Source: a virus
Strand: one strand, 5' to 3'
Length of the DNA: 28,177 nucleotides
Virus record (IMG/VR): IMGVR_UViG_3300049846_002978
Coordinates: 1-28,177 of that record
The notes under the pieces were generated by a model, which was given only the letters and a program-made list of their open reading frames with translations, searched no databases and was not told the origin of the DNA. Positions within the stretch are counted from its first letter, which is position 1. Every line of letters starts with the position of its first letter. Shown piece after piece: positions 3,212 through 25,167 of the stretch. The translations under genes and the position numbers were made by a program.

Positions 3212-4579
3212 TTAATGTGCCAGCACAAAAGCATTTTGTTCATTGTACTTGATACACTGGTGGTTAGCTAAGTATTGTTTACCTACATCAGAATGCCTGA
3301 AAGATTCAAAACTGGCTCCCAGAATACCTACAAAAAACACATTGGGACTGTACACACTGATACTATCCTGCATGTCTGTAATAACTACACTGGGCCTGTC
3401 TGTTTCTTCTACCTGGCGGATTACTCTATCAATATCAGTTCCACCAGTAACTCTCATTCTGGCAATGTCTGCTTTATCCGTAAGCTTTTTGTGTACTCTG
3501 CTTTCAAAAGGATATACATCTTCTACATGTCCCAGGTTCTTAAGTTTAATAGCTGTTATTTTAGCAAGATCTATTCCTCTTAAGGTATCAGAGCTATTGC
3601 CTTTTTTACTCATGTTATACATTCTGGAATCCATGGATCCTGAGATGTCTATGAAGATATCAAACTTCATGTGATATTTCCTTTCATGAGTAACTACATC
3701 TTCCAGACCAACAGCTCTTAACTGCGGGATTAAAAACTCTACTCCCTGTAAGTCATCAATCACATCAGCTTCCAGAAACTCTAACTGAGTTTCTGTGTAC
3801 TTAGTGGAGAAATAACTTTCAGAAAGTTTTAAGGTGTTCTTGACAAAACTGGAAACAGTGGTTTCATCTAAACTGATATGTTCCAAAGCTTCTGTATAGT
3901 CCATGAACTCTTTAATGTCTCCCAGGGAAAAATCTCCCATGCCTTTATCACAGCCAAGATCTCCGGTAGTTTCTCCGGTTTTCTCAGTGTCTTTGATTCT
4001 CTGGTCAGCTTCCTGCTGAGCTTTTTCCATAGCCTGGTCCAGCTTCTGATTACCTTTTTGGTTGCCTTGCATTTTGCGCAACATCTTTTCTATACCAGAC
4101 TGTCCTTTTCCACTTTTACCTTCCCCATCCTGAGGAGCAGGTCCCTGTGGATTTTCCTGTTGATACATTAACAACAACTGCTTCAGGATTTCACTGCTGT
4201 AGATATAGCTGTTAAAAGGATTGTTTTGAGTTACAGTTTTGGTATAATACCCGGTAGCCCTGTTCATCAGGAAATCAAACAGCCACTGATTACTTTCATC
4301 AGTTACTCCAAGTTCAATACTTTCAGTAGGAGTTTCATTGATGTTGTAAGTATCATACATCATGTACTTGGGAAATATTTTTTCTACTGCTTCCTCAAGC
4401 TGTTCCCTGTTCATGCCATTGTAAGGACCCATGTTTTTTTCTTTGACAAAATCTTCTATGTCATCCAGCAACAGTCCATACAAGTCTTTTTTGTCCCAGT
4501 AAGAGAGCTTGGGATTAACAAGCTCTCTTTCTGACACATTAAAGACGGAGTTAAAATCATACGAGAATTTTTTAGCCAT
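3212..4579 (-). CDS. VWA-domain protein, partner of MoxR-type ATPase
   Basis: The 455-aa product has a helical N-terminal half, a hydrophilic linker rich in Gln, Gly and Lys (about 140-215), and a C-terminal von Willebrand factor A domain. All three parts of the MIDAS metal site are visible: DISGS at 311-315, the Thr of GGTD at 381, and the Asp of VITDMQD at 402. The layout resembles CoxE/CobT-like VWA proteins, which bind targets and work with AAA+ MoxR/CobS ATPases. The gene directly upstream (4597-5718) encodes such an ATPase, so the two probably form one complex. The target is unknown; it could be a replication, repair or assembly complex. Confidence 0.88.
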   Translation of the reverse strand: MAKKFSYDFNSVFNVSERELVNPKLSYWDKKDLYGLLLDDIEDFVKEKNMGPYNGMNREQLEEAVEKIFPKYMMYDTYNINETPTESIELGVTDESNQWLFDFLMNRATGYYTKTVTQNNPFNSYIYSSEILKQLLLMYQQENPQGPAPQDGEGKSGKGQSGIEKMLRKMQGNQKGNQKLDQAMEKAQQEADQRIKDTEKTGETTGDLGCDKGMGDFSLGDIKEFMDYTEALEHISLDETTVSSFVKNTLKLSESYFSTKYTETQLEFLEADVIDDLQGVEFLIPQLRAVGLEDVVTHERKYHMKFDIFIDISGSMDSRMYNMSKKGNSSDTLRGIDLAKITAIKLKNLGHVEDVYPFESRVHKKLTDKADIARMRVTGGTDIDRVIRQVEETDRPSVVITDMQDSISVYSPNVFFVGILGASFESFRHSDVGKQYLANHQCIKYNEQNAFVLAH

Positions 4580-4596
4580 CTTACTTTAATTTAGAA

Positions 4597-5718
4597 TTAA
4601 GGATTTACTGCCTGCGCATTCCAGTTGGTTTTGGTACCGGAATCACTCATGGCTTTTGAAATGTTATCATTTCCTGCATTGTACACCGGATGCTTAGCCA
4701 ATACTTTGTTCAGTTCTTTGGCCAGGTCTTCCATATCAGCTTTGGTAACAGATTCCAAAGTAGAAGCGGCTTGTGCTGCCTTCTTGATATCTTCAATCTG
4801 ATTCAGGATCTGATCATAGTTTTGCAAAGAATTGATGTAATCAATTTTGTTTCTGATGTTGGAAATTTCTGCAGGCTCCAGCTTTTGAGCAAGAGCTTTT
4901 GCTTTTTCAGGCCCAATCAGAACTTCACAAGCTTTGATCGTAGACTTCTTGGCTGCAATTTCAAACACATAACTGATAGCAGCAATTACCCGGGGAACAT
5001 AGGACAAGCTTCTGTCTGAAAGAGTATCATAAGCAACTTCCAGAAAAGCTCTGAGAATATCAGGATTTAACTGGTTGTTAATAAAATCTTCAATGTCTTT
5101 CTGATCAGGCAGGTTAATTTCAACAGGAGCTTTAGTGCCTTTGCTGTAATACTGCAACATCTGGGTTTTGGTCAGCCTGGAAACATTGTGCTTGATTACA
5201 AATCTGTCCCAGAAAGGATTGTTGGCTTCTTCCTTTGGAATGACGTTACAGCTTGCGCAGAATAATTCCCATGGACAGTAAATTTTATCCTGGCCATTGA
5301 ACAGCATCTTTTCATTCATGACACCCAGCATAGAGTTTCTTAAGCCTGGGTTAGCTTTATCAACTTCATTGATGAGAATCATTTTAGCTTTGGAGATAGG
5401 AGAATTCAGCTCATACTTTGGAATCAAAGCTTTCCCTGCAGCATCCATTCCAGGGGCAAGTAATTTCTCCATGTCCACTCTGCCCTTAATTTCTGCAGGT
5501 CTGGTACCTTCATCTGTTTCCAGAATGAAAGTGCTGTGCAGTGCATCTACAGGATTGTTGTTATGCAATCCCATACTATAATCTAACAGAACTCTGGTCT
5601 TTCCAACTCCTGGAGGACCTACTAATAAAACAGGATAGCCTGTAGCATGACCTACAGCTAAGATTTTGAAAGTTTCACCTCTACCAAGAAGTCCGGTTTT
5701 AATGTTAATTTTTTTCAT
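4597..5718 (-). CDS. MoxR/CobS-type AAA+ ATPase
   Basis: A 373-aa AAA+ protein. Walker A is GPPGVGKT at residues 34-41; Walker B is MILINEVDKAN around 113-123 with E118 and D120; the sensor-1 strand ends in ASCN near 155-158; the Arg finger is probably R172 in FWDRF. The EVDKAN box and the GRVDMEK insert fit the MoxR/CobS group, ATP-driven remodelling machines paired with VWA proteins. The C-terminal 80 residues are helical and end in a flexible tail. A TAACCTTTCT element sits 7 bases before the ATG. The VWA gene follows after 17 bases, so they are probably co-transcribed. Confidence 0.9.
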   Translation of the reverse strand: MKKINIKTGLLGRGETFKILAVGHATGYPVLLVGPPGVGKTRVLLDYSMGLHNNNPVDALHSTFILETDEGTRPAEIKGRVDMEKLLAPGMDAAGKALIPKYELNSPISKAKMILINEVDKANPGLRNSMLGVMNEKMLFNGQDKIYCPWELFCASCNVIPKEEANNPFWDRFVIKHNVSRLTKTQMLQYYSKGTKAPVEINLPDQKDIEDFINNQLNPDILRAFLEVAYDTLSDRSLSYVPRVIAAISYVFEIAAKKSTIKACEVLIGPEKAKALAQKLEPAEISNIRNKIDYINSLQNYDQILNQIEDIKKAAQAASTLESVTKADMEDLAKELNKVLAKHPVYNAGNDNISKAMSDSGTKTNWNAQAVNP

Positions 5719-5746: not shown

Positions 5747-6061
5747 TTATCTGTTACTTAAAATGCGTTCTGTTAGTTTGTATTCCCACTGTTTGATCTC
5801 ATCTAATTTTAAGACATCGCTTACAGTGGTAGAAGCGCTGTTTTCATACCTGGCTTTCAGATCTCTTACCATAAGTAACAAGTCTTCCAGCTCAGGCACT
5901 GTCAGCAAAGCATACCTGTTAGGTTTCTTTGCATCCAATAAAGCCTTAGCACAATCCTGTACTACTTCATAAATCTGTTTCCGGTATTCATTTACATCAG
6001 TTCCTGGAACTGGAGTGTAGGTTTTGATTAATTCATCAATTTTTGCGTCAATGGTGTTCAT
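5747..6061 (-). CDS. Helical hypothetical protein (104 aa)
   Basis: I take the ATG at 6061 because it forms an exact ATGA overlap with the primase stop; the open frame continues to 6160 but only inside primase coding sequence. The product is all-helical and charged, with KQIYEVVQDCAKALLDAKK and LTVPELEDLLLMVRDLKARYE as likely helices. No catalytic motif is seen. Its position between the primase and the MoxR-type ATPase, coupled to primase translation, suggests a role with one of them, but that is inference. Confidence 0.65.
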   Translation of the reverse strand: MNTIDAKIDELIKTYTPVPGTDVNEYRKQIYEVVQDCAKALLDAKKPNRYALLTVPELEDLLLMVRDLKARYENSASTTVSDVLKLDEIKQWEYKLTERILSNR

Positions 6062-7068
6062 ACATGTGTGAGTTGCAACATAAGTTCGTAAGCTTCTTGT
6101 GGTCCATACTTCTTTATAAAGTCTGAAATGTCTTTTACATCTTCTTCTTTGGGAATCCATAGTTTTTCAAAAGGATATTTAGCAGCACCTTTTACACCAG
6201 CATTATCACAGTCAAAAAGCATTTTTATACTCTTATACTTTGATTTCAAATCATTCTGAATAGCTTGTGTGATGAGGATGTTCTCTCCTTTGGGAGCTAT
6301 AGCTTCATATCCCAGTAGTCTTAGCACCATTACATCTTTGGTAGATTTAGTGATGATCAGTAATTCCCTGGAAGCATTTCTTCTGACTAATTGATACAGA
6401 CCTTCTACATAGTTACTGGGAAAGTTATTGGCAAACTTGTGCTCAATACTTCCGGGAGTGTAAACCTTGAAGAACTTTCCTATTCTGTAACTGAAAGCCA
6501 GATCTGTCAGGGTTTTTATTCCTAAATCCCCTACCAGACTACTAACTTCTTTTACATTATACTCTTCAAGGATTTCCGGAGTAATGTAATACTGGTCCCA
6601 GAACTGTCTCCCTTCTGCAGTAAATTCCTTTTTGGCAATGACATCTTTAAAGCCAAATTTGCTTTTACTTTTTCTTTCTGCAGGTAGGAATTGTTTTTTA
6701 GATAGTTCTCCGATGGAATTACCTATCAAGCCCAGTCCAAAATCTTTACAGATTTTATTGCAAGCTTGTGTTAAGTTCTTTAAACCATACAACTCCTGAA
6801 CAAAGTCAAATATATCTCCCCCCTTTTCTCCTTTACCATGGTCATAGAATTTCAACTTACCACTTCTGCCTTCATAAATAACAAAACTAGGAAGTGAATC
6901 TGGCTGATCTTTGGCAGGATCCCTGAGAGGAGATAAAATGACCTGATTGATATACACATCTGTATTCAAATAATAACTGAACAGTGTGTAGTCATCAACC
7001 AGGTCAAGTATTTCATCCTTGCCAGGAAAGTAGTTGGTCTTAAGACTATCCAACACATCCTGACTCAT
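6058..7068 (-). CDS. DnaG-like primase with TOPRIM domain, zinc-free N-terminus
   Basis: The 336-aa protein follows phage DnaG-like primases. Residues 45-95 match the CHC2 zinc-binding fold in outline (SPLRD, LPSFVIYE, KLKFYDHGKGEKGGDIFDFV), but the cysteine and histidine ligands are absent. The TOPRIM domain spans about 234-320: LLIITKSTKDVM replaces the usual acidic EG..D start, FDCDNAG (D286, D288) is the DxD metal motif, and DISDF (D313) is the third acidic site. Family role: RNA primers for lagging-strand synthesis, with the helicase at 9589-10656. Loss of zinc ligands is known in phage primases; missing the first glutamate makes true primase activity less certain. Confidence 0.8.
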   Translation of the reverse strand: MSQDVLDSLKTNYFPGKDEILDLVDDYTLFSYYLNTDVYINQVILSPLRDPAKDQPDSLPSFVIYEGRSGKLKFYDHGKGEKGGDIFDFVQELYGLKNLTQACNKICKDFGLGLIGNSIGELSKKQFLPAERKSKSKFGFKDVIAKKEFTAEGRQFWDQYYITPEILEEYNVKEVSSLVGDLGIKTLTDLAFSYRIGKFFKVYTPGSIEHKFANNFPSNYVEGLYQLVRRNASRELLIITKSTKDVMVLRLLGYEAIAPKGENILITQAIQNDLKSKYKSIKMLFDCDNAGVKGAAKYPFEKLWIPKEEDVKDISDFIKKYGPQEAYELMLQLTHV

Positions 7069-7078
7069 TGTTCAGTTA

Positions 7079-7795
7079 TTATTTTACACCAAACAAGTTA
7101 GCCACTGCTTCTGCTTCTGCAGCATTGCCACCACCGGCTTCACCTGCTGCTGGTGTAGGATCTGAAAGGTCTGTTCCTGAAGGTTGTCCTTCTGGATCTC
7201 CTTTTCTGTATCCCATTTCCCAGGCACTGAACTTCAGCTTGGAAGCTGTCTTAGGAATGCTCATTGGTTCAATGAAAGGTACAAAGCGTGGAATGGTTGG
7301 GAAGTTTTTGTCCTTGGAAGTTCTGAGCAACTTCATTCTCCAGGCTTGTGGGCTGGCCAGGAAAGGAGTAATTTCTCTCACAAACTGATCCACAAAGTTT
7401 GTGTACACTCTGTCTACTACTGTTTTACGCATTAAAGGATCCAGCAAAGCATCCATGAATGCATTGTTGTCAGCAAAGTTCAATCCATTGGTAATGTCCC
7501 ATTTGTAATTTGCCATGGGCTTGTACTGTTCCAGAATGTGGTTCAGCTGACTCTTGAGCACATTGATCTTATTTACAAGATCCTGCACAATCAGGGCATC
7601 AGAATCCAATCTGTCATCTGGCTTAATGGGCCACATGTAAAACCCGGTTTCATTTTCACTGGCAGTGCTGCCATTGGACAACATGTCAAGAATATCAGCT
7701 CCACCTCCCTGACGGAGAGTGAGCACTAAAGTTCCCTGATCATTTTTTACTGCGTTGATTAAACGCAAGTCTTCTTGAATACCTACTTGAATCAT
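7079..7795 (-). CDS. Replication-module protein with disordered tail and C-terminal LF motif
   Basis: The 238-aa product is not recognised. Residues 1-190 look globular, with a strand-rich start (LRLINAVKNDQGTLVLTLRQ) and a helical middle. Residues 195-225 are a low-complexity Gly/Ala/Pro/Glu linker, ending in a short tail AEAVANLFGVK. The next gene upstream encodes a protein ending with a similar tail. A flexible linker with a terminal aromatic motif recalls the partner-binding tails of single-stranded DNA-binding proteins, and its place between the primase and Sak4-like genes fits that, but no OB-fold can be proved by eye. Confidence 0.65.
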   Translation of the reverse strand: MIQVGIQEDLRLINAVKNDQGTLVLTLRQGGGADILDMLSNGSTASENETGFYMWPIKPDDRLDSDALIVQDLVNKINVLKSQLNHILEQYKPMANYKWDITNGLNFADNNAFMDALLDPLMRKTVVDRVYTNFVDQFVREITPFLASPQAWRMKLLRTSKDKNFPTIPRFVPFIEPMSIPKTASKLKFSAWEMGYRKGDPEGQPSGTDLSDPTPAAGEAGGGNAAEAEAVANLFGVK

Positions 7796-7851
7796 AGTTT
7801 TAAATTTAAAATTGGTTTTACTTTATTTATCTGACTTTACTTTTTACTTGA

Positions 7852-8538
7852 TTAATTGAACAGTGCAGCTGCTGCAGATTCTGCTTTTGCAGGTACAGGC
7901 TGTGGTACTTCCTCTGCCGGAGTTACAATAGACACAGGAAAAATCTGGATGTTTTCTCTCCTTACATAAGTAGGCTTTCCTGCATCCTTACCTCTTTCTA
8001 CCACCTTTGGAATGTGATAAATACCGGTAGGGGATACATGTAAAGGAGCTTCTGTCACGATCTTCAGGTCCACATAAGTTTTGTTCCCAAAGATGTTTTC
8101 TGTTTCCGGATTATCCAAATAGACTTTGCTTAAAGCATCAATCAAAGTTTGTCCGGCAGCTGTTTTCTGATTTAAAACACTGGACTTAGGAACATTGCCA
8201 TCATACCTTACCTGGCTGAAAAGATCAACCTTGTCTGCATGTTTGCTTACCAAAGCCACACATACAAACGGCACTGCATTTTTACTGGTGTTGTTGTACT
8301 GTGCCCAATCAGAAGATACAAACACATCATAACCATTAGCTACCAATACAGAATCTTTGTTCTGAAACTCCAGTTTGTGAGCTTCTACCAAATCCTTGCT
8401 GGGATAAATGGATCCATCAGCAAACAGTCTCAAATGTGCTCCAGGTGCCGGAGTTTTTTCAGGGGTTGCAGATGCAGGGGCTTTTTCAATTTCTTTCAGC
8501 TCCATTGTTTTAAGGAAGTCAAATGTGATTTTTTTCAT
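7852..8538 (-). CDS. Replication-module protein with LF tail; ssDNA-binding candidate
   Basis: The 228-aa product starts MKKITFDFLKTMELKE, then a Pro/Ala-rich stretch. Residues 30-190 hold a probable beta-rich core: LRLFADGSIYPSKDLVEAHKLEF, GYDVFVSSDW, KVDLFSQVRYDG and TYVDLKIVTEAPL. A Pro/Ala/Glu-rich tail ends AESAAAALFN, close to the tail of the neighbour at 7079-7795. Its position next to a Sak4-like recombinase gene is where phages often carry a single-stranded DNA-binding or annealing protein. That is context only; the fold and function are not established. Confidence 0.65.
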   Translation of the reverse strand: MKKITFDFLKTMELKEIEKAPASATPEKTPAPGAHLRLFADGSIYPSKDLVEAHKLEFQNKDSVLVANGYDVFVSSDWAQYNNTSKNAVPFVCVALVSKHADKVDLFSQVRYDGNVPKSSVLNQKTAAGQTLIDALSKVYLDNPETENIFGNKTYVDLKIVTEAPLHVSPTGIYHIPKVVERGKDAGKPTYVRRENIQIFPVSIVTPAEEVPQPVPAKAESAAAALFN

Positions 8539-8576: not shown

Positions 8577-9311
8577 TTAAGTTAAACTTACAGGGGAAGT
8601 TGCTGGTTGAGGAGTTTTCTTAAACCTGAATTCATCAATGCGGTTAACAATAGCCAGCATGTTGTTGTCTACGAAATCCTCTTTAAACATTCCCATAGGA
8701 GTCTTGGCAAGATACTTACCATCATTATGTGTCTGAAACTTGAAACTTAAACTGCCATTGGAATTAAATACCCGGCTATGGAATACATAAGTAAAGTAGC
8801 TTGGAAGTTTAATGGTGTTATCCAGAAGTTTTCCAGCTGTTTGTAATCCAATAGTACCATTGTCCTTGATCTCTGTGTGACCAATGATGATCACTGTAAG
8901 ATCCTCTCTCATTGCCTGAATATGCTTGGTAGTGATTGCAAACATATCAGCTCCAAACTTATTCCACTTGCCCCAGTCATCTGTCTTGATAAAAGCATCA
9001 TCCATCATCCTGTCATTCATGAAGTGTGTTAAGTCTTCAAGAACAATGTACTTGATTTTAGGATTTGCATTGATTGCCACCAGATGTTCTAATACTCCAG
9101 GCTCTTCTTTAGGATCTGTGGAAACCTTCTTTCTGATCTTCAGGCAGGTTATAAGGTTGCCTTTAGCCACAGAATAATCATCCATTGCACCTTCCCAGGG
9201 AAGATCCTTACTGTTGGGACTTATGATAACAGTTTCCTTTGGCGGTAAACTGAAAAGAGAACTGCTCTTTCCAGTGCCCATGTCTCCGACTACTAAGATT
9301 GCTTTTGCCAT
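8577..9311 (-). CDS. Sak4/AAA_24-like RecA-fold ATPase (recombination)
   Basis: A 244-aa single-domain P-loop ATPase. Walker A is GDMGTGKSS (residues 9-17); Walker B is KYIVLEDLTHF with E92 and D93; VIIIGHTEIKD fits the strand ending in a sensor residue. Length and the TGKSSS/LEDLTHF style match the AAA_24 phage nucleotide-binding family that includes Sak4, a short RecA/Rad51-like protein linked to single-strand annealing and often next to a single-strand binding protein. The neighbours at 7852-8538 and 7079-7795 are candidates for that partner. ATPase class is firm; recombinase function is inferred. Confidence 0.82.
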   Translation of the reverse strand: MAKAILVVGDMGTGKSSSLFSLPPKETVIISPNSKDLPWEGAMDDYSVAKGNLITCLKIRKKVSTDPKEEPGVLEHLVAINANPKIKYIVLEDLTHFMNDRMMDDAFIKTDDWGKWNKFGADMFAITTKHIQAMREDLTVIIIGHTEIKDNGTIGLQTAGKLLDNTIKLPSYFTYVFHSRVFNSNGSLSFKFQTHNDGKYLAKTPMGMFKEDFVDNNMLAIVNRIDEFRFKKTPQPATSPVSLT

Positions 9312-9588: not shown

Positions 9589-10656
9589 TTATTGATAATC
9601 GTTATAAGTTTCCATACCCATTTTGAAAAGTTCTGCTCTGGGAAGTTCTTTCAGTTTACCTCTTCCACCTGCAAAGTGCATGGCTTTAACCAGGTATTCC
9701 ATACCATCTCTGTTTTTCATAAGATGAATACTTCTGAAAGAACTTGGCATCTTGGTGATATCATATCCTGCATAGTCCTGAAGATCATACTTCACCGGAT
9801 TAAATACACCTAATGCCACATTACAATCCTGTCCCAGGTTACCAGTATCTTTAAAGTCTTCCAGTATAGGAGCAAGATCCAGCTTGCCACTATGAGCAAG
9901 TTTTAATCTTTCTATTCCTGATAAACCTTTATTAAACTGGCAAACCATCACAGGAGTATAATTGAACATGTTTCTGAGTTCAATCATGTACTCAGATAAC
10001 TTATCAATGTTCTGCTTGGTATCGTAACCTCTTTCTTTCTTGGTAAGACCAACGTGATCCACTATGATAATAACATACTCATCAGGATTGTTGGGAGTGT
10101 AGCCGGACCTGCGTTTTCCCGGAGATCCATCTGGATGTATATAATTTTCATAATGAATAGTACCATGCTGTTCAGCATATTTGTTAACTGTGTTTCTGAT
10201 ACCAGTAGGGTTTTCAGGATCCTGGACAAACGTAATATGGTCAAAAAGCTCATCCATATACTGATCCACCTCTACTACTTTTTTATAAACTTCATCAGAA
10301 ATTCTGTTCTTGGTACCTTTGGACAGGATGTTACTGCTGTCTACTACTAATCCGTAATCATTGAATAATTTGTAAGCAGTCCACTTGGCTCTCTTGGCCA
10401 TGTAACTGATTTCAAAGGAATAATAAAACCATTTGGCTTTAACTACTCCATCCCTTTTTTTGTAGAAAAAATAAGGTGAGAGAATAAAGTTGTCATCGAC
10501 AAAAGCTGATTTACCAGCTCCCGGCATACCTCCTACTGCATAGTAAGTACCTCTTTGGGTATTGTATAAGTAATCATTAAATGATTCAAAACAATTATAC
10601 AATCCTTCATTGCCGCCTAATCTCCCTCTGTCTACATACTCAAGGAATTTACTCAT
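9589..10656 (-). CDS. DnaB-like replicative helicase (ATPase domain only)
   Basis: The 355-aa protein matches the RecA-like C-terminal domain of DnaB/gp4-type helicases. Walker A is GGMPGAGKS (42-50), an acidic switch is in YSFEIS near E82, Walker B is VIIIVDHVGL (D200), the sensor strand MVCQFNK has Q240, and MKNRDG (313-318) matches the DnaB K-x-R-x-G arginine-finger region. It lacks the N-terminal primase-interacting domain and is shorter than cellular DnaB (about 450-470 aa). Its ATG overlaps the stop of the 168-aa gene upstream as ATGA. Predicted to unwind the fork as a ring; it could alternatively be a DnaB-like recombination ATPase. Confidence 0.85.
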   Translation of the reverse strand: MSKFLEYVDRGRLGGNEGLYNCFESFNDYLYNTQRGTYYAVGGMPGAGKSAFVDDNFILSPYFFYKKRDGVVKAKWFYYSFEISYMAKRAKWTAYKLFNDYGLVVDSSNILSKGTKNRISDEVYKKVVEVDQYMDELFDHITFVQDPENPTGIRNTVNKYAEQHGTIHYENYIHPDGSPGKRRSGYTPNNPDEYVIIIVDHVGLTKKERGYDTKQNIDKLSEYMIELRNMFNYTPVMVCQFNKGLSGIERLKLAHSGKLDLAPILEDFKDTGNLGQDCNVALGVFNPVKYDLQDYAGYDITKMPSSFRSIHLMKNRDGMEYLVKAMHFAGGRGKLKELPRAELFKMGMETYNDYQ

Positions 10657-13864: not shown

Positions 13865-16063
13865 TTATTTTGTCCATGTTTCCCCGCAATGCATATCAGC
13901 TTTCATTCTGACAGCAGGAATTAAATACTTGTTGGCTGTTCTGGTCATCAGTTTGACAAACACTTCCGGCAACCATGGATTGTACTTCTTGTTAAATTTG
14001 ATCACCAGTTCATCATGCACCTGCATGAGAATTACTGCATCTAATTTGTACAAGTCAATAAATCGCTGAATAATTACCATAGACTCACAAAGCATGTCTG
14101 CCTGGGTGCCTTGGATTCTGCAGTTTCTGGCTCCGCCCTCTACATCTTTCCTTTCCATAAAGGTCATTTCCCTGTCCTCCTGCTTGGCCTTCAGGACGGG
14201 ATAAAACCATCTCCGGGATTTGGTCCTGTCATTATGCACTACATAGCCTTGCCTCAAAGCTGTTTTTACAGCTGCAGTCACCATTTTAATAGTGTCCGGG
14301 ACTTCTTCTATAATAGTGTCAATGGCTATCTGGCCCTCTTTTTCAGACACATTCAGGGTTTCCCCTGCTTTAGGAGCTTTCAGGCCATAAATAGTACCAA
14401 ACAGCATGGGCTTATACTCTGTGCGCTTATCCTTATTCTGCTCTTTGGAGATCACATCTGCAGAGGTCCAGGGAAGCTTTCTGTGTTTGTAGATAGCTTG
14501 CCAGCCTTTATTGGCAAAGTGACTGTGCATGTCTCCCTGTGACAAATTCAGCAGGTTTAAATCATTGGCCAGAGAGCACATAGTCACCAACTCAGCTCCT
14601 GAAAGGTCAATAGTAGCGATGTCATAGCCGGGATCTGTGCCAAAGCACTCCCTCAGTTCAGTGTCAGCAATGATCTGCTGGGAATTAAACTTGGGAGGTA
14701 CTGCATCACTGTCTCCGCTGGCCAGCCTGCCAGTAGCTACTGTGCCCTGCTTGTAACTGGTGTGGTATTTACCGGTAACCGGGTGCTTGTATTTGCTCAG
14801 GAAGCTTAAACCAAAGCTGTTAACGTGCTTGGTATAGCCCATGTACTTGTCAAAGGTTTCCATCAACGCATACAGAGGATTTCCCTTGTTCTTTAACAGC
14901 CACTTTTCCCGGGAAGCTCTTCCCAGACTAGGCTTAAACTTCTTGGTTTTCTGGTCTTTTACCAAAGGCATGGGTTTACATTTCAAAGCTTCCAGCAAAC
15001 TCACTACCTGATCTGTAGAACTCCACTTGAGATCCTCCTGCGCCTGCAGCTCTGTACTTTTAACTGCAGCTTCATCCAGGTCTTTAAGGATTTTATCAAC
15101 AGCTTCTACAGAAAGCTTATAAGCTTTCAGGTGAGTTTTATTCTCAGCTTCATACTTGGAAATCAAATTTCTGACTTTAGCAAGTCTGTCCTGAGATTTA
15201 GCTACCCGGTTTACATTACTTTCCAGCGCTTTTTTCAATGGCTTGTTTAAAGCTATGAGATCCAGGTTGGGATAATGAGTTTTTACCCAGATGTTCATCA
15301 TCTCTTCCAGAGCCTTCATAGTCTGTTCTGCCTGCTGAGCCAGAGCTGCAAACTTAGGTTCATTGATAACCAGTCCTTCAAGCTGAGCTTTGGCCAGGAT
15401 TCTGATAAGAGGAAAATGTATCTGTTTAATATAAAACTGAAGCTCAAAACTGTCAATAAGAACTGCTTGTCTTTTCTTCAGCTCTGCCAGCAAAAGAGTA
15501 TCTGCCTGATTGTACAGCACATGTTTAAGCTCATGAGTGTTGTAAGTTGCACTGAAATCAGCTCTCACATCTTTGTTCATATCTTCAGGAATAGCAAAAC
15601 CTCTTCTGAGCAATGTATCCACAATGTTGAACCTGATATCTTCTGCACCCTGAAAGAGTTTCTGTTCTGCCAGCATAGTACAGTAAATGTTCCTGATATC
15701 ACATTTGTGTCTCTGAAACCAAAGGATTTCAAACAAAGCATTGTGAGCTATTATGCTCTTTTTATGCAGATCCATACCTGCAAGCATAATAGTAACAGGA
15801 ATGCTGATGTTATCAAAAGTGATAACAGTATTCCCTACCTGAAGGGTAGTAAGTACAATGTTACCACAATAAGGATCCACACTGGTGGTTTCAATATCCA
15901 GGCTGATATCTTCAGGAGCATTTTTAAGAAAAGTTTTAGCGGCTTCAATACTGGCTTTCTCTGAAAGCACCGTAAATGTTTCATTAACTCTCCCAAGAGT
16001 CTGAAACTCCTTTTCCATGTACTTATAGAAGGGGTTACGGGTAATGAAAAGCCTGTTTAGCAT
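13865..16063 (-). CDS. Family A DNA polymerase with 3'-5' exonuclease
   Basis: At 732 aa this is a T7-size family A polymerase with no 5' nuclease domain. Proofreading residues: D56-x-E58 in SLDIET, AHNALFE (Exo II, with E112 where Asp is usual), and YNQAD (Exo III, D188). Polymerase residues: TGRLAS at 444-449, motif A TIDLSGAEL (D486, E491), motif B R547-x3-K551-x3-F555-x3-Y559-G, and motif C QVHDE (681-685). F555 at the sugar-sensing position is like E. coli Pol I rather than T7. A charged helical insertion (about 280-345) may bind a partner. It is the main replicative polymerase here. The ATG follows the stop of the 243-aa gene by one base. Confidence 0.96.
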   Translation of the reverse strand: MLNRLFITRNPFYKYMEKEFQTLGRVNETFTVLSEKASIEAAKTFLKNAPEDISLDIETTSVDPYCGNIVLTTLQVGNTVITFDNISIPVTIMLAGMDLHKKSIIAHNALFEILWFQRHKCDIRNIYCTMLAEQKLFQGAEDIRFNIVDTLLRRGFAIPEDMNKDVRADFSATYNTHELKHVLYNQADTLLLAELKKRQAVLIDSFELQFYIKQIHFPLIRILAKAQLEGLVINEPKFAALAQQAEQTMKALEEMMNIWVKTHYPNLDLIALNKPLKKALESNVNRVAKSQDRLAKVRNLISKYEAENKTHLKAYKLSVEAVDKILKDLDEAAVKSTELQAQEDLKWSSTDQVVSLLEALKCKPMPLVKDQKTKKFKPSLGRASREKWLLKNKGNPLYALMETFDKYMGYTKHVNSFGLSFLSKYKHPVTGKYHTSYKQGTVATGRLASGDSDAVPPKFNSQQIIADTELRECFGTDPGYDIATIDLSGAELVTMCSLANDLNLLNLSQGDMHSHFANKGWQAIYKHRKLPWTSADVISKEQNKDKRTEYKPMLFGTIYGLKAPKAGETLNVSEKEGQIAIDTIIEEVPDTIKMVTAAVKTALRQGYVVHNDRTKSRRWFYPVLKAKQEDREMTFMERKDVEGGARNCRIQGTQADMLCESMVIIQRFIDLYKLDAVILMQVHDELVIKFNKKYNPWLPEVFVKLMTRTANKYLIPAVRMKADMHCGETWTK

Positions 16064-18006: not shown

Positions 18007-18349
18007 GTAGCTGTTTTAGTTTTAGTTGAGCAATGATTCTGAGCACTCTCTTAGCAGCATTTTCTTTGTTCAGTGCCTGAAGGTAAATGTATTTACTGTT
18101 TTGCTGCACTTTAGAATGAATGATATTATGTGACAACTTGGGATTGATAGGATGGTCTGTAATTTCTACTTCTGTTGTAGTTTTAACAGGAACAATAGTT
18201 CCTTTTTCAGGGTCCCAGGCAAAGATCTGATGTCCTCTGACTTTTCTTTCTGATTTCTTCAGACTATATTCATGTGGTACCGGGATCTCAATCTTGGTAA
18301 CTTTTTCCAGCTGATTAAGCTCATGTACGGGATTTATTTCCTTTTCCAT
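17993..18349 (-). CDS. Basic hypothetical protein (118 aa)
   Basis: A basic protein with a strand-rich middle (RKVRGHQIFAWDPEKGTIVPV) and a C-terminal helix with ALNKENAAKRVLRI. It overlaps the WGR gene upstream by 16 bases and the 61-aa gene downstream by 14. It could be a nucleic-acid-binding partner of the WGR protein, but no motif proves this. Confidence 0.6.
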   Translation of the reverse strand: MEKEINPVHELNQLEKVTKIEIPVPHEYSLKKSERKVRGHQIFAWDPEKGTIVPVKTTTEVEITDHPINPKLSHNIIHSKVQQNSKYIYLQALNKENAAKRVLRIIAQLKLKQLHGLL

Positions 18350-18777
18350 GCGGGAGTTGTTTTTAGGAGTTGATTAAATGATTCAAATTTTATCCTGGCT
18401 TCTTCTGTATTTACCTTATTAGGTTTAGGTGGAGCTTCAACAGATTCTTTAGAATAAATAGGTCCAATAGATAAAGCTCTTTTTATATCCTGCACAGTAG
18501 TCCCGGGTTCTGGCTCATATCCTTTGTTAATTTTTTGTTGAAATACTTTAGTAGCTGCTCTGATTGCGTCTGCAGTGCTGCTGTATTTGGTTTTCATACC
18601 AGTTCCTAAAGTACCTATTCTGCCATAACAGGTTTCTACTGTTCCATCAATGTCAATAAATACCCTGTAAAACTTATAAGAGTTTCCATCTGTGCAGATC
18701 AGTTTAATCTGAGCTTCCCTGTACAAAGGAGAAAGCTGTAAGTCTCTTCCAAGAGGAGTTTTTGCATTACCACTCAT
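18334..18777 (-). CDS. WGR-domain protein
   Basis: The ATG at 18777 (MSGNAKTPLG) is chosen; a TTG 9 bases upstream is the only extension. Residues about 20-90 form a WGR domain: an aromatic strand NSYKFYRVFIDIDG, the hallmark CYGRIGTLGTG (YGRIG for W-G-R-x-G), and a helix STADAIRAATKVFQQKINKGYEP. WGR domains occur in PARP1-3 and in bacterial MolR-like proteins, where they contact DNA ends or partners. No ADP-ribosyltransferase domain is attached. The start overlaps the end of the YkgJ-type gene by 11 bases, so they are co-translated. Domain call is good, role unknown. Confidence 0.82.
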   Translation of the reverse strand: MSGNAKTPLGRDLQLSPLYREAQIKLICTDGNSYKFYRVFIDIDGTVETCYGRIGTLGTGMKTKYSSTADAIRAATKVFQQKINKGYEPEPGTTVQDIKRALSIGPIYSKESVEAPPKPNKVNTEEARIKFESFNQLLKTTPAWKRK

Positions 18778-19369
18778 AATCTGCAATGTTTTTAACTGAA
18801 TTAAATGTGTCAGGCTCTCTCATTATAGGATAAAACTGAATAGCTTCAAATATTACAGCTCTGGGCTGACTTACAAATACTTTGCCCTGCTCTATGTTCT
18901 GCTGGTGACACTCTTCAGGATCAGTTCCTCTGGCTGCTCCATGATTACGGCATACCATAGGCCGGTGCTCATAAATCTGACATCTTCCGTCTTTCAACAT
19001 GATGCAGGCTTTATCTGCAAAGCTGAGTTTAGTGTACTCTGTGGCTCTTTGTTTAGCCTGTCTTTCTTTATCAATTTCATACCTGGTAGCATTTTCTTTA
19101 ATGTACTGGGCTTCTGAAGGAGTCATGAATATTTCTGAATGACAACAGAAAGAACATTGCTGCCTTCCACATTGTAACTCATCTTCGAACTTAGCTTTTT
19201 CCTGCAGAAAATCCAGCTGTACATGTAATGCTCTGATTAAAGTAGGTCCATGCAGATGTCCTGCTGGAGTTCTAGTATGAATTGTCATCATGTTCTTCTG
19301 TAACTCTTCAAAATGCTCTTCTATAAAAGCATCTTTGATTTTAGGTACTGTTCTTTCTGTAAGTTTCAT
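18767..19369 (-). CDS. YkgJ-type cysteine-cluster protein
   Basis: I take the ATG at 19369, which overlaps the upstream stop as ATGA; the frame is open to 19480. The 200-aa product has the cysteine pattern of the YkgJ (CxxCxxCC) family: C67, C72, C75, C76 in CGRQQCSFCC, then C122, and CQIYEHRPMVCR (C130, C140), plus C154-H155. The family is thought to bind zinc or an iron-sulfur cluster; its reaction is not well known. Finding it in a phage-like cluster beside a WGR protein is notable. A modification or oxidoreductase role is possible but unproven. Confidence 0.85.
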   Translation of the reverse strand: MKLTERTVPKIKDAFIEEHFEELQKNMMTIHTRTPAGHLHGPTLIRALHVQLDFLQEKAKFEDELQCGRQQCSFCCHSEIFMTPSEAQYIKENATRYEIDKERQAKQRATEYTKLSFADKACIMLKDGRCQIYEHRPMVCRNHGAARGTDPEECHQQNIEQGKVFVSQPRAVIFEAIQFYPIMREPDTFNSVKNIADYEW

Positions 19370-25059: not shown

Positions 25060-25080
25060 ACTAAATTAAATTTAAGTTTG

Positions 25081-25167
25081 AAACCAGAGTGGGACTCGAA
25101 CCCACATTTCCTTGAAGTAAGGATGCTACCCGAAGCAGTATTTATTCCTGCTTACATCATCTGGTTT
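25081..25167 (-). tRNA. tRNA-like element with abnormal D and anticodon arms
   Basis: The minus strand has a perfect T-arm (GTGGG, loop TTCGAGT, CCCAC; 25089-25105) and an 8-bp acceptor stem AAACCAGA/TCTGGTTT. GGGTAGCATC resembles the 3' half of a D-arm and could pair as GATG/CATC, but the D-loop would hold an extra hairpin (AAGCAG/CTGCTT, 25133-25153). The anticodon arm TCCTT/AAGGA (25109-25123) has only a 5-base loop. From CATC to the T-stem are 16 bases, about 7 fewer than normal. It may be a decayed tRNA or a tRNA mimic. No anticodon assigned; CCA not encoded. Confidence 0.5.

Follow-up and report, generated by a model that had tools for sequence, protein, structure and literature searches.

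Two neighbouring genes of a phage related to crAss-like phages encode proteins, designated A and B, which differ in their main domains and end in similar short hydrophobic tails. The explanation that best accounts for the data as a whole, with an estimated probability of about 0.55, is that A, a putative single-stranded DNA-binding protein (SSB), and its companion B dock by this shared tail motif on a protein of the replication core. The DNA analyzed, hereafter the window, is the whole of a 28,177-nucleotide stretch from IMG/VR record IMGVR_UViG_3300049846_002978, and is a portion of the replication region of the phage. Docking tails of the SSB type are already known, as in the SSB-Sak4 system of phage HK620.

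Organization of the locus and of the two tails

The genes follow each other, on the minus strand, in the order DnaB-like helicase, a 74-aa protein, Sak4-like ATPase, B, A and primase; coordinates and main features are reported in Table 1. The best phage matches of the primase, among those listed, are crAss-like primases, with an identity of 34% or less. The ORF at positions 5747-6160, as listed, overlaps the end of the primase gene; its real start is probably further in, because the versions found in relatives (105-110 aa) begin directly past the primase stop. The window also contains a MoxR-type ATPase (PF20030) and a 455-aa protein without Pfam match (3212-5718), which are found side by side in relatives too, a WGR-domain protein (PF05406, E 7.3e-12) at 18334-18786, and a tRNA-Arg (TCG) gene at 25080-25166.

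Table 1. Position of the replication genes of the window and of the segments distinguished within proteins A and B.
Feature	Position	Strand	Details
Protein A, putative SSB-like (ssDNA-binding)	7079..7795	-	238 aa, ends GGGNAAEAEAVANLFGVK; AEAVANLFGVK tail
A tail motif VANLFG, residues 231-236	7088..7105	-	[AVI]xx[LIV][FL][GP], 7/7 relatives
A variable linker, about residues 197-228	7112..7207	-	pLDDT <50 from 217
Protein B, companion	7852..8538	-	228 aa, ends VPQPVPAKAESAAAALFN
B tail AESAAAALFN, residues 219-228	7855..7884	-	profile: LF, IF or IL near the end, 5/7 relatives
B variable Pro/Ala/Glu linker, residues 206-218	7885..7923	-	length varies after invariant RRE
B folded core, residues 33-205	7924..8442	-	mean pairwise identity 0.47 (seven relatives); predicted strands and helices
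B N-terminal conserved peptide MKKITFDFLKTMELKEIE (MKKITFDFL...), residues 1-18	8485..8538	-	pLDDT <50
Sak4-like ATPase, candidate receptor	8577..9311	-	PHROG 2872, E 4.8e-44
DNA primase, candidate receptor	6058..7068	-	PHROG 12622, E 1e-29
DnaB-like helicase, candidate receptor	9589..10656	-	PF03796
Family A DNA polymerase, candidate receptor	13865..16063	-	PF00476, E 1.2e-41

A first-pass annotation of the sequence had described two ORFs with main domains of different appearance, each continued by a flexible linker up to a terminal AEAVANLFGVK or AESAAAALFN, and all these features were recovered. Both ORFs and their tails are present on the minus strand at the positions it had given; the segments preceding the tails are of low complexity, with AlphaFold2 pLDDT values below 50 (residues 208-228 of B, 217-228 and 230-238 of A); no sequence similarity is detectable between the main domains of A and B (HHalign probability 0.3).

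The significance of the likeness between the two tails was evaluated within the window. Aligned locally with BLOSUM62, the C-terminal 14 residues of the two proteins score 19, a value reached by 18% of shuffles (p 0.18), and the notion that the likeness is significant from the window by itself was rejected. The A/B pair is absent from the 8 best-scoring tail pairs listed for the 46 window proteins, and unrelated pairs score higher; an end formed by [LIVM][FWY] followed by up to 6 residues is found in 4 of the 46 proteins, A and B being among these. An origin of the two proteins from a common duplication was also rejected at the DNA level, no duplication being found between the two tails, and no trace of it is seen in the profiles compared by HHalign. 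The shuffling result is in keeping with an alternative in which A and B have separate motifs for separate partners, their likeness being a coincidence of short hydrophobic ends on Ala/Glu-rich linkers. Since similarity in the window alone is not significant, the case for a common motif must rest on relatives.

Tail conservation in the window clade and in other lineages

Scans of IMG/VR produced a clade of seven divergent members, namely the window, L003, L005, L013, L018, L103 and L105. Near-identical loci were counted once, L003 standing for L001, L002 and L004, and L013 for L011 and L012; copies of the same contig that had been fetched again were likewise counted once, and L112 was left out of the reading. 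The order B, A, primase is found in all seven loci, with A always directly before the primase gene, and a Sak4-like ATPase precedes B in six of them.

The seven A tails (VANLFG, VDKLFP, VDELFG, VEDLFG, VEEVFG, IDNVFG and AADILG) all fit the pattern [AVI]xx[LIV][FL][GP]. B ends in AAALFN, AAAIFG, ASKLFS, AEALFG, EEILN or NDILG, and in L105 without a clear motif; its tail resembles that of A in five of the seven members, the resemblance being weak in L018 (EEILNI) and absent in L105. Linkers extend for 33 to 72 residues beyond an invariant RRE in B and for 36-54 residues beyond the last conserved block in A (seven relatives). Conservation of the tails in divergent relatives, combined with linkers that vary in length and sequence, is what characterizes short docking motifs. 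Homologues without the conserved tail, named by the first-pass annotation as evidence against its docking-tail idea, were found for B (L018 and L105) and not among the seven A proteins; overall, the idea is partly supported.

A flexible tail that terminates in LF also recalls the QLxLF motif by which proteins bind sliding clamps, and the tails might be clamp-binding motifs of this xxLF kind. The clamp-binding motif has Gln at position 1, and this residue is lacking at that place from every motif window of both proteins; no clamp family was detected by Pfam among 30 proteins of the window, which is a fragment and leaves room for a host clamp. Clamp binding is considered very improbable.

In a further test, a six-residue profile was built from the A tails only, so that B plays no part in the definition of the motif, and was scored over the last 18 residues of all other ORFs of at least 70 aa from the same loci. 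In five of the seven phages, 0 to 2 of the 91 other ORFs score as high as B; the exceptions are L018, where 15 of 91 do so, and L105, with 39 of 91. By the Mann-Whitney test, the p-values are 2.9e-5 for the A profile on B tails and 2.9e-6 for the B profile on A tails, figures which are indicative only and overstate independence, because the rows are homologous to each other.

Further lineages were collected from a scan with the MoxR neighbour and from annotated phages, 80 of the 167 related viral-contig stretches found with MoxR being kept. Pair tests were performed without L021, L031, L079, L096 and L117, because a second protein of this kind was not identified there. Lineage 2 is composed of eight loci, L095 having been excluded for scores identical to those of L092, and carries, between ATPase and primase, two proteins which are unrelated to B and A according to HHalign. 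The first ends in DWM, DWS, DWA, EWAG or EWMEN in six of the eight loci, whereas DWL followed by a few residues closes the second in all eight. Profile tests on these tails gave p-values of 1.2e-4 and 2e-6 with a padded C-terminus, where padding was added for all lineages and was decided after the unpadded outcome was known. The first test had failed when unpadded (p 0.23), because motifs lying so close to the C-terminus, at the final residue or adjacent to it, cannot be placed without padding. Lineage 3 comprises two phages only (L022 and L118), in which both proteins, X and Y, have tails containing [DN]F[DN] or FDF (p 0.024 both ways). In L022, the end of the DnaB-like helicase (L022:4901-5995), NFNFALE, also resembles the tails of X and Y.

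The A profiles of the window clade, lineage 2 and lineage 3 each assign the top score to the B tails of their own lineage. Own-lineage means are 5.3, 4.9 and 6.9, as compared with at most 2.1 when the B tails come from either of the other two lineages; by chance, such lineage-specific matching is one of six possible orders.

One group departs from this pattern and another is ambiguous. In lineage 4, 40 of 41 closed ORFs of the SSB-like protein have a DW, NW, EW or SW form at their end; the small protein preceding it carries a conserved end of its own, mostly of the FDTFEIID type and unlike the SDW of the SSB (41 pairs), which is possibly a separate docking motif. In the same lineage (e.g. L134, L138 and L148), an SSB-like tail, either DVPF or SVPF, is also seen on the primase, in 16 of 33 closed ORFs. 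In Steigviridae both tails are of a P-aromatic type (e.g. EMPFKD and TPWG), and the A profile scores 2.8 on its own neighbour versus 3.9 on lineage 2, so that the own pair is not the best. As far as these comparisons go, the sharing of a tail across the pair appears to repeat in two other lineages and to fail in a fourth.

The different conserved tail of the second protein in lineage 4, together with the two B tails out of seven which do not fit in the window clade, is what a coincidental likeness would produce. Against coincidence stand two lineages in which the profile of either protein places the tails of the other well ahead of unrelated ORFs, and the lineage-specific matching seen in three; on balance it is held to be unlikely. 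The presence, in related phages, of other tails on an equivalent pair suggests that both proteins dock on the same part of the replication apparatus.

Identity of proteins A and B

On the basis of predicted fold, profile and gene position, A is probably the ssDNA-binding protein of this phage, because it resembles proteins of Suoliviridae which end in D/G-LPF, a docking tail of the SSB type. The AlphaFold2 model of A, obtained from a five-sequence alignment (mean pLDDT 71.1), was compared by Foldseek with predicted viral structures. It matched a 197-aa protein of cr131_1 (probability 1.00, E 1.2e-4) and a 203-aa protein of cr1_1 (probability 1.00, E 1.7e-3), entries which were assigned to genes of these phages by organism and length only; the following row had a probability of 0.10. 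The match of the folds is moderate (TM 0.45/0.53). In both phages, a protein of matching length sits between a RecA-like ATPase and the primase, i.e. in the very position of A, and when the seven A sequences were compared by HHalign with six Suoliviridae proteins encoded at this place, the probability was 85 (P 6e-6, 88 columns).

In all six Suoliviridae loci the A-like protein comes directly after the ATPase and upstream of the primase; in cr10_1 (L116), two intervening genes, annotated as porphyrin biosynthesis and CbbQ/NirQ/NorQ-type, separate it from the latter. The six aligned proteins have diverged linkers and share an LPF end, preceded by D in five of them. When the complete cr1_1 genome was scanned, in two pieces, no six-frame ORF of at least 50 aa other than this protein showed a P-[FW] end of the form searched. 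The family therefore shares with A predicted fold, profile, gene position and the arrangement of a linker followed by a short C-terminal tail, and differs from it in the tail itself (D/G-LPF versus AxxLFG), in its size of about 200 aa and in having no B-like neighbour annotated. It matches 33 records, which are annotated as "hypothetical protein" wherever an annotation is given among the matches listed. A and B had both been described as unrecognised proteins: this holds for B, while A turns out to belong to a family present in the sampled Suoliviridae beside the ATPase and upstream of the primase. The parallel drawn with SSB tails in the same annotation was apt, since it is these relatives of A that have the D/G-LPF tail.

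The Suoliviridae loci also bear on the possibility that the tails act within the pair. The tail of A could fold back on its own ssDNA-binding face, and that of B could mimic it and thereby modulate A. B adjoins A throughout the window clade, and SSB C-terminal tails can inhibit DNA binding, as stated in a section of a review (PMC9917605). In the six Suoliviridae loci, however, the LPF tail is retained without any protein between ATPase and SSB-like protein, and an action limited to the pair is regarded as quite unlikely.

OB-fold ssDNA binders are among the PDB rows retrieved by the model of A, all of them weak matches (Z below 5): PrgE (Z 4.4, rmsd 4.5, 102-106 residues aligned), Cdc13 OB4 (Z 3.2) and POT1 (Z 2.1), with unrelated folds reaching similar Z values. 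No Foldseek match of the model to PDB had an E below 0.001, and a sequence search of solved structures with A9 and A8 gave no match of weight. Judging from its model, A may have an OB fold. Neither A nor B matches a curated SSB family, or any family with a match of weight, in PHROGs, Pfam and NCBIfam; the annotated SSB of Shewanella phage 3/49, used as a positive control, gave a match to PHROG 743 with an E of 5.5e-46. No match was found for either protein by tblastn against annotated phages.

The combination of a disordered linker with a conserved short tail, a feature of SSBs, is present in A, where the motif is found in 7 of 7 members and the linker is variable. The canonical acidic tail ending in P-F is found in neither protein of the window (ANLFGVK in A, AAALFN in B) and occurs in the Suoliviridae relatives only. 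In E. coli the SSB C-terminus is DDDIPF, as quoted in a passage of PMC5928155. A and B share with bacterial SSBs the disordered linker and the short conserved hydrophobic end, and differ from them in having no acidic run, no P-F end and a core without sequence match to SSB families. In the portion available of a comparison of crAss-like phages (PMC7886860), primase, two helicases and ATPase are given as highly conserved replication genes and the term SSB is absent; a "putative ssb" is annotated in p-crAssphage, according to an extract of PMC6962324.

The AlphaFold2 model of B has a beta-rich core (mean pLDDT 70.7). Foldseek comparison with PDB gave no match of weight, no row reached a Z of 2, and no relatives were found in GTDB genomes; B appears to be without known relatives beyond its own group. 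A relationship with the first protein of lineage 2 (B2) or with X of lineage 3 was unsupported by HHalign; these two are weakly alike (probability 29, P 6e-4). The N-terminal peptide of B has an identity of 0.53, versus 0.23 in the variable stretch which follows it and precedes the core; it is a possible second short motif, so that B may have one at each end.

Candidate receptors and a proposed docking model

Primase, helicase and Sak4-like ATPase had been proposed as possible common partners of the two tails by the first-pass annotation. If the ATPase were the receptor, the tails would dock on it as in HK620, aiding its loading on A-coated ssDNA. Removal of the last six residues of HK620 SSB reduces Sak4 recombineering tenfold and abolishes Sak4 binding to SSB-coated ssDNA, as described in the part of PMC5928155 considered here; the published receptor is Sak4 itself, a precedent in favour of the ATPase. 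The HK620 system is like the window in that the Sak4 gene adjoins the SSB gene and a short C-terminal tail is needed for the interaction (same source, same part), and ATPase and B genes adjoin in 6 of 7 relatives. It is unlike the window in consisting, according to the same text, of one SSB ending in NDYPPF, as against two proteins with a common tail that has no P-F.

A second difference is that, in the window clade, the ATPase seems exchangeable without loss of the tails, as seen in one contig. In the primase tree, the L005 locus is nested within the window clade (100/98), and its ATPase (L005:3-560, contig IMGVR_UViG_3300005544_000371) groups with those of Suoliviridae (100/100), having 43% identity to the cr1_1 protein (E 1e-55), with the other members of the clade on the Sak4 side of the ATPase tree. 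Both LF tails (ASKLFS and VDELFG) are retained in L005, and therefore did not change along with the ATPase. No second L005-like contig was found and the ATPase fragment lies at the contig end, so that an assembly artefact or chimera is possible. DW-type tails, in turn, are carried by SSB-like proteins beside Sak4-type ATPases in lineage 2 and beside another ATPase type in lineage 4.

Because L005 keeps its LF tails, and because tail type is independent of ATPase type in lineages 2 and 4 and in Suoliviridae, the Sak4-like ATPase appears to be the weakest of the three receptors proposed. Docking on it in the manner of HK620 does not look likely; the comparisons speak against the ATPase as sole receptor, and primase, polymerase or helicase would be more likely.

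In phage T7, the C-terminal tails of the SSB gp2.5 and of the helicase-primase gp4, both acidic with a terminal Phe, target the same polymerase. T7 and the window are alike in having two replication proteins of one phage with C-terminal tails. The A and B tails differ in being amphipathic, with LF set back 1-3 residues from the end in the window, and B is no helicase or primase by any match found. By analogy with T7, the VPF ends of lineage 4 primases would make the polymerase a candidate receptor.

Both A and B combine a folded core with a flexible linker, whose length varies, and with a short hydrophobic motif at the C-terminus, [AVI]xx[LIV][FL][GPN], which in A occupies the place of the SSB-type LPF tail of its Suoliviridae relatives. 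In the docking model favoured here, A would coat ssDNA. Both tails would dock in one groove or pocket, presumably common to the two, of a replication-core protein. The flexible linkers would allow many A molecules to reach this pocket, A-coated ssDNA and B would thereby be held at the fork, and B would bring a second activity to the same place.

For crAss-like phages carrying this gene, which is "hypothetical" among the records listed, a likely SSB can now be named. The variety of tails on equivalent proteins suggests that docking codes have switched repeatedly, and makes these phages a test case for the joint change of short docking tails and their receptor. A more general proposal, advanced tentatively and rated as doubtful, is that in crAss-related phages one pocket of the replication core recruits two unrelated proteins, an SSB and a companion, by a common C-terminal peptide, and that the specificity of this pocket has switched repeatedly (LPF, PWF, DWL, LFG, [DN]F[DN]), taking both clients together wherever a companion exists. 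If this were true, the co-switching tails would constitute a natural series of orthogonal docking codes.
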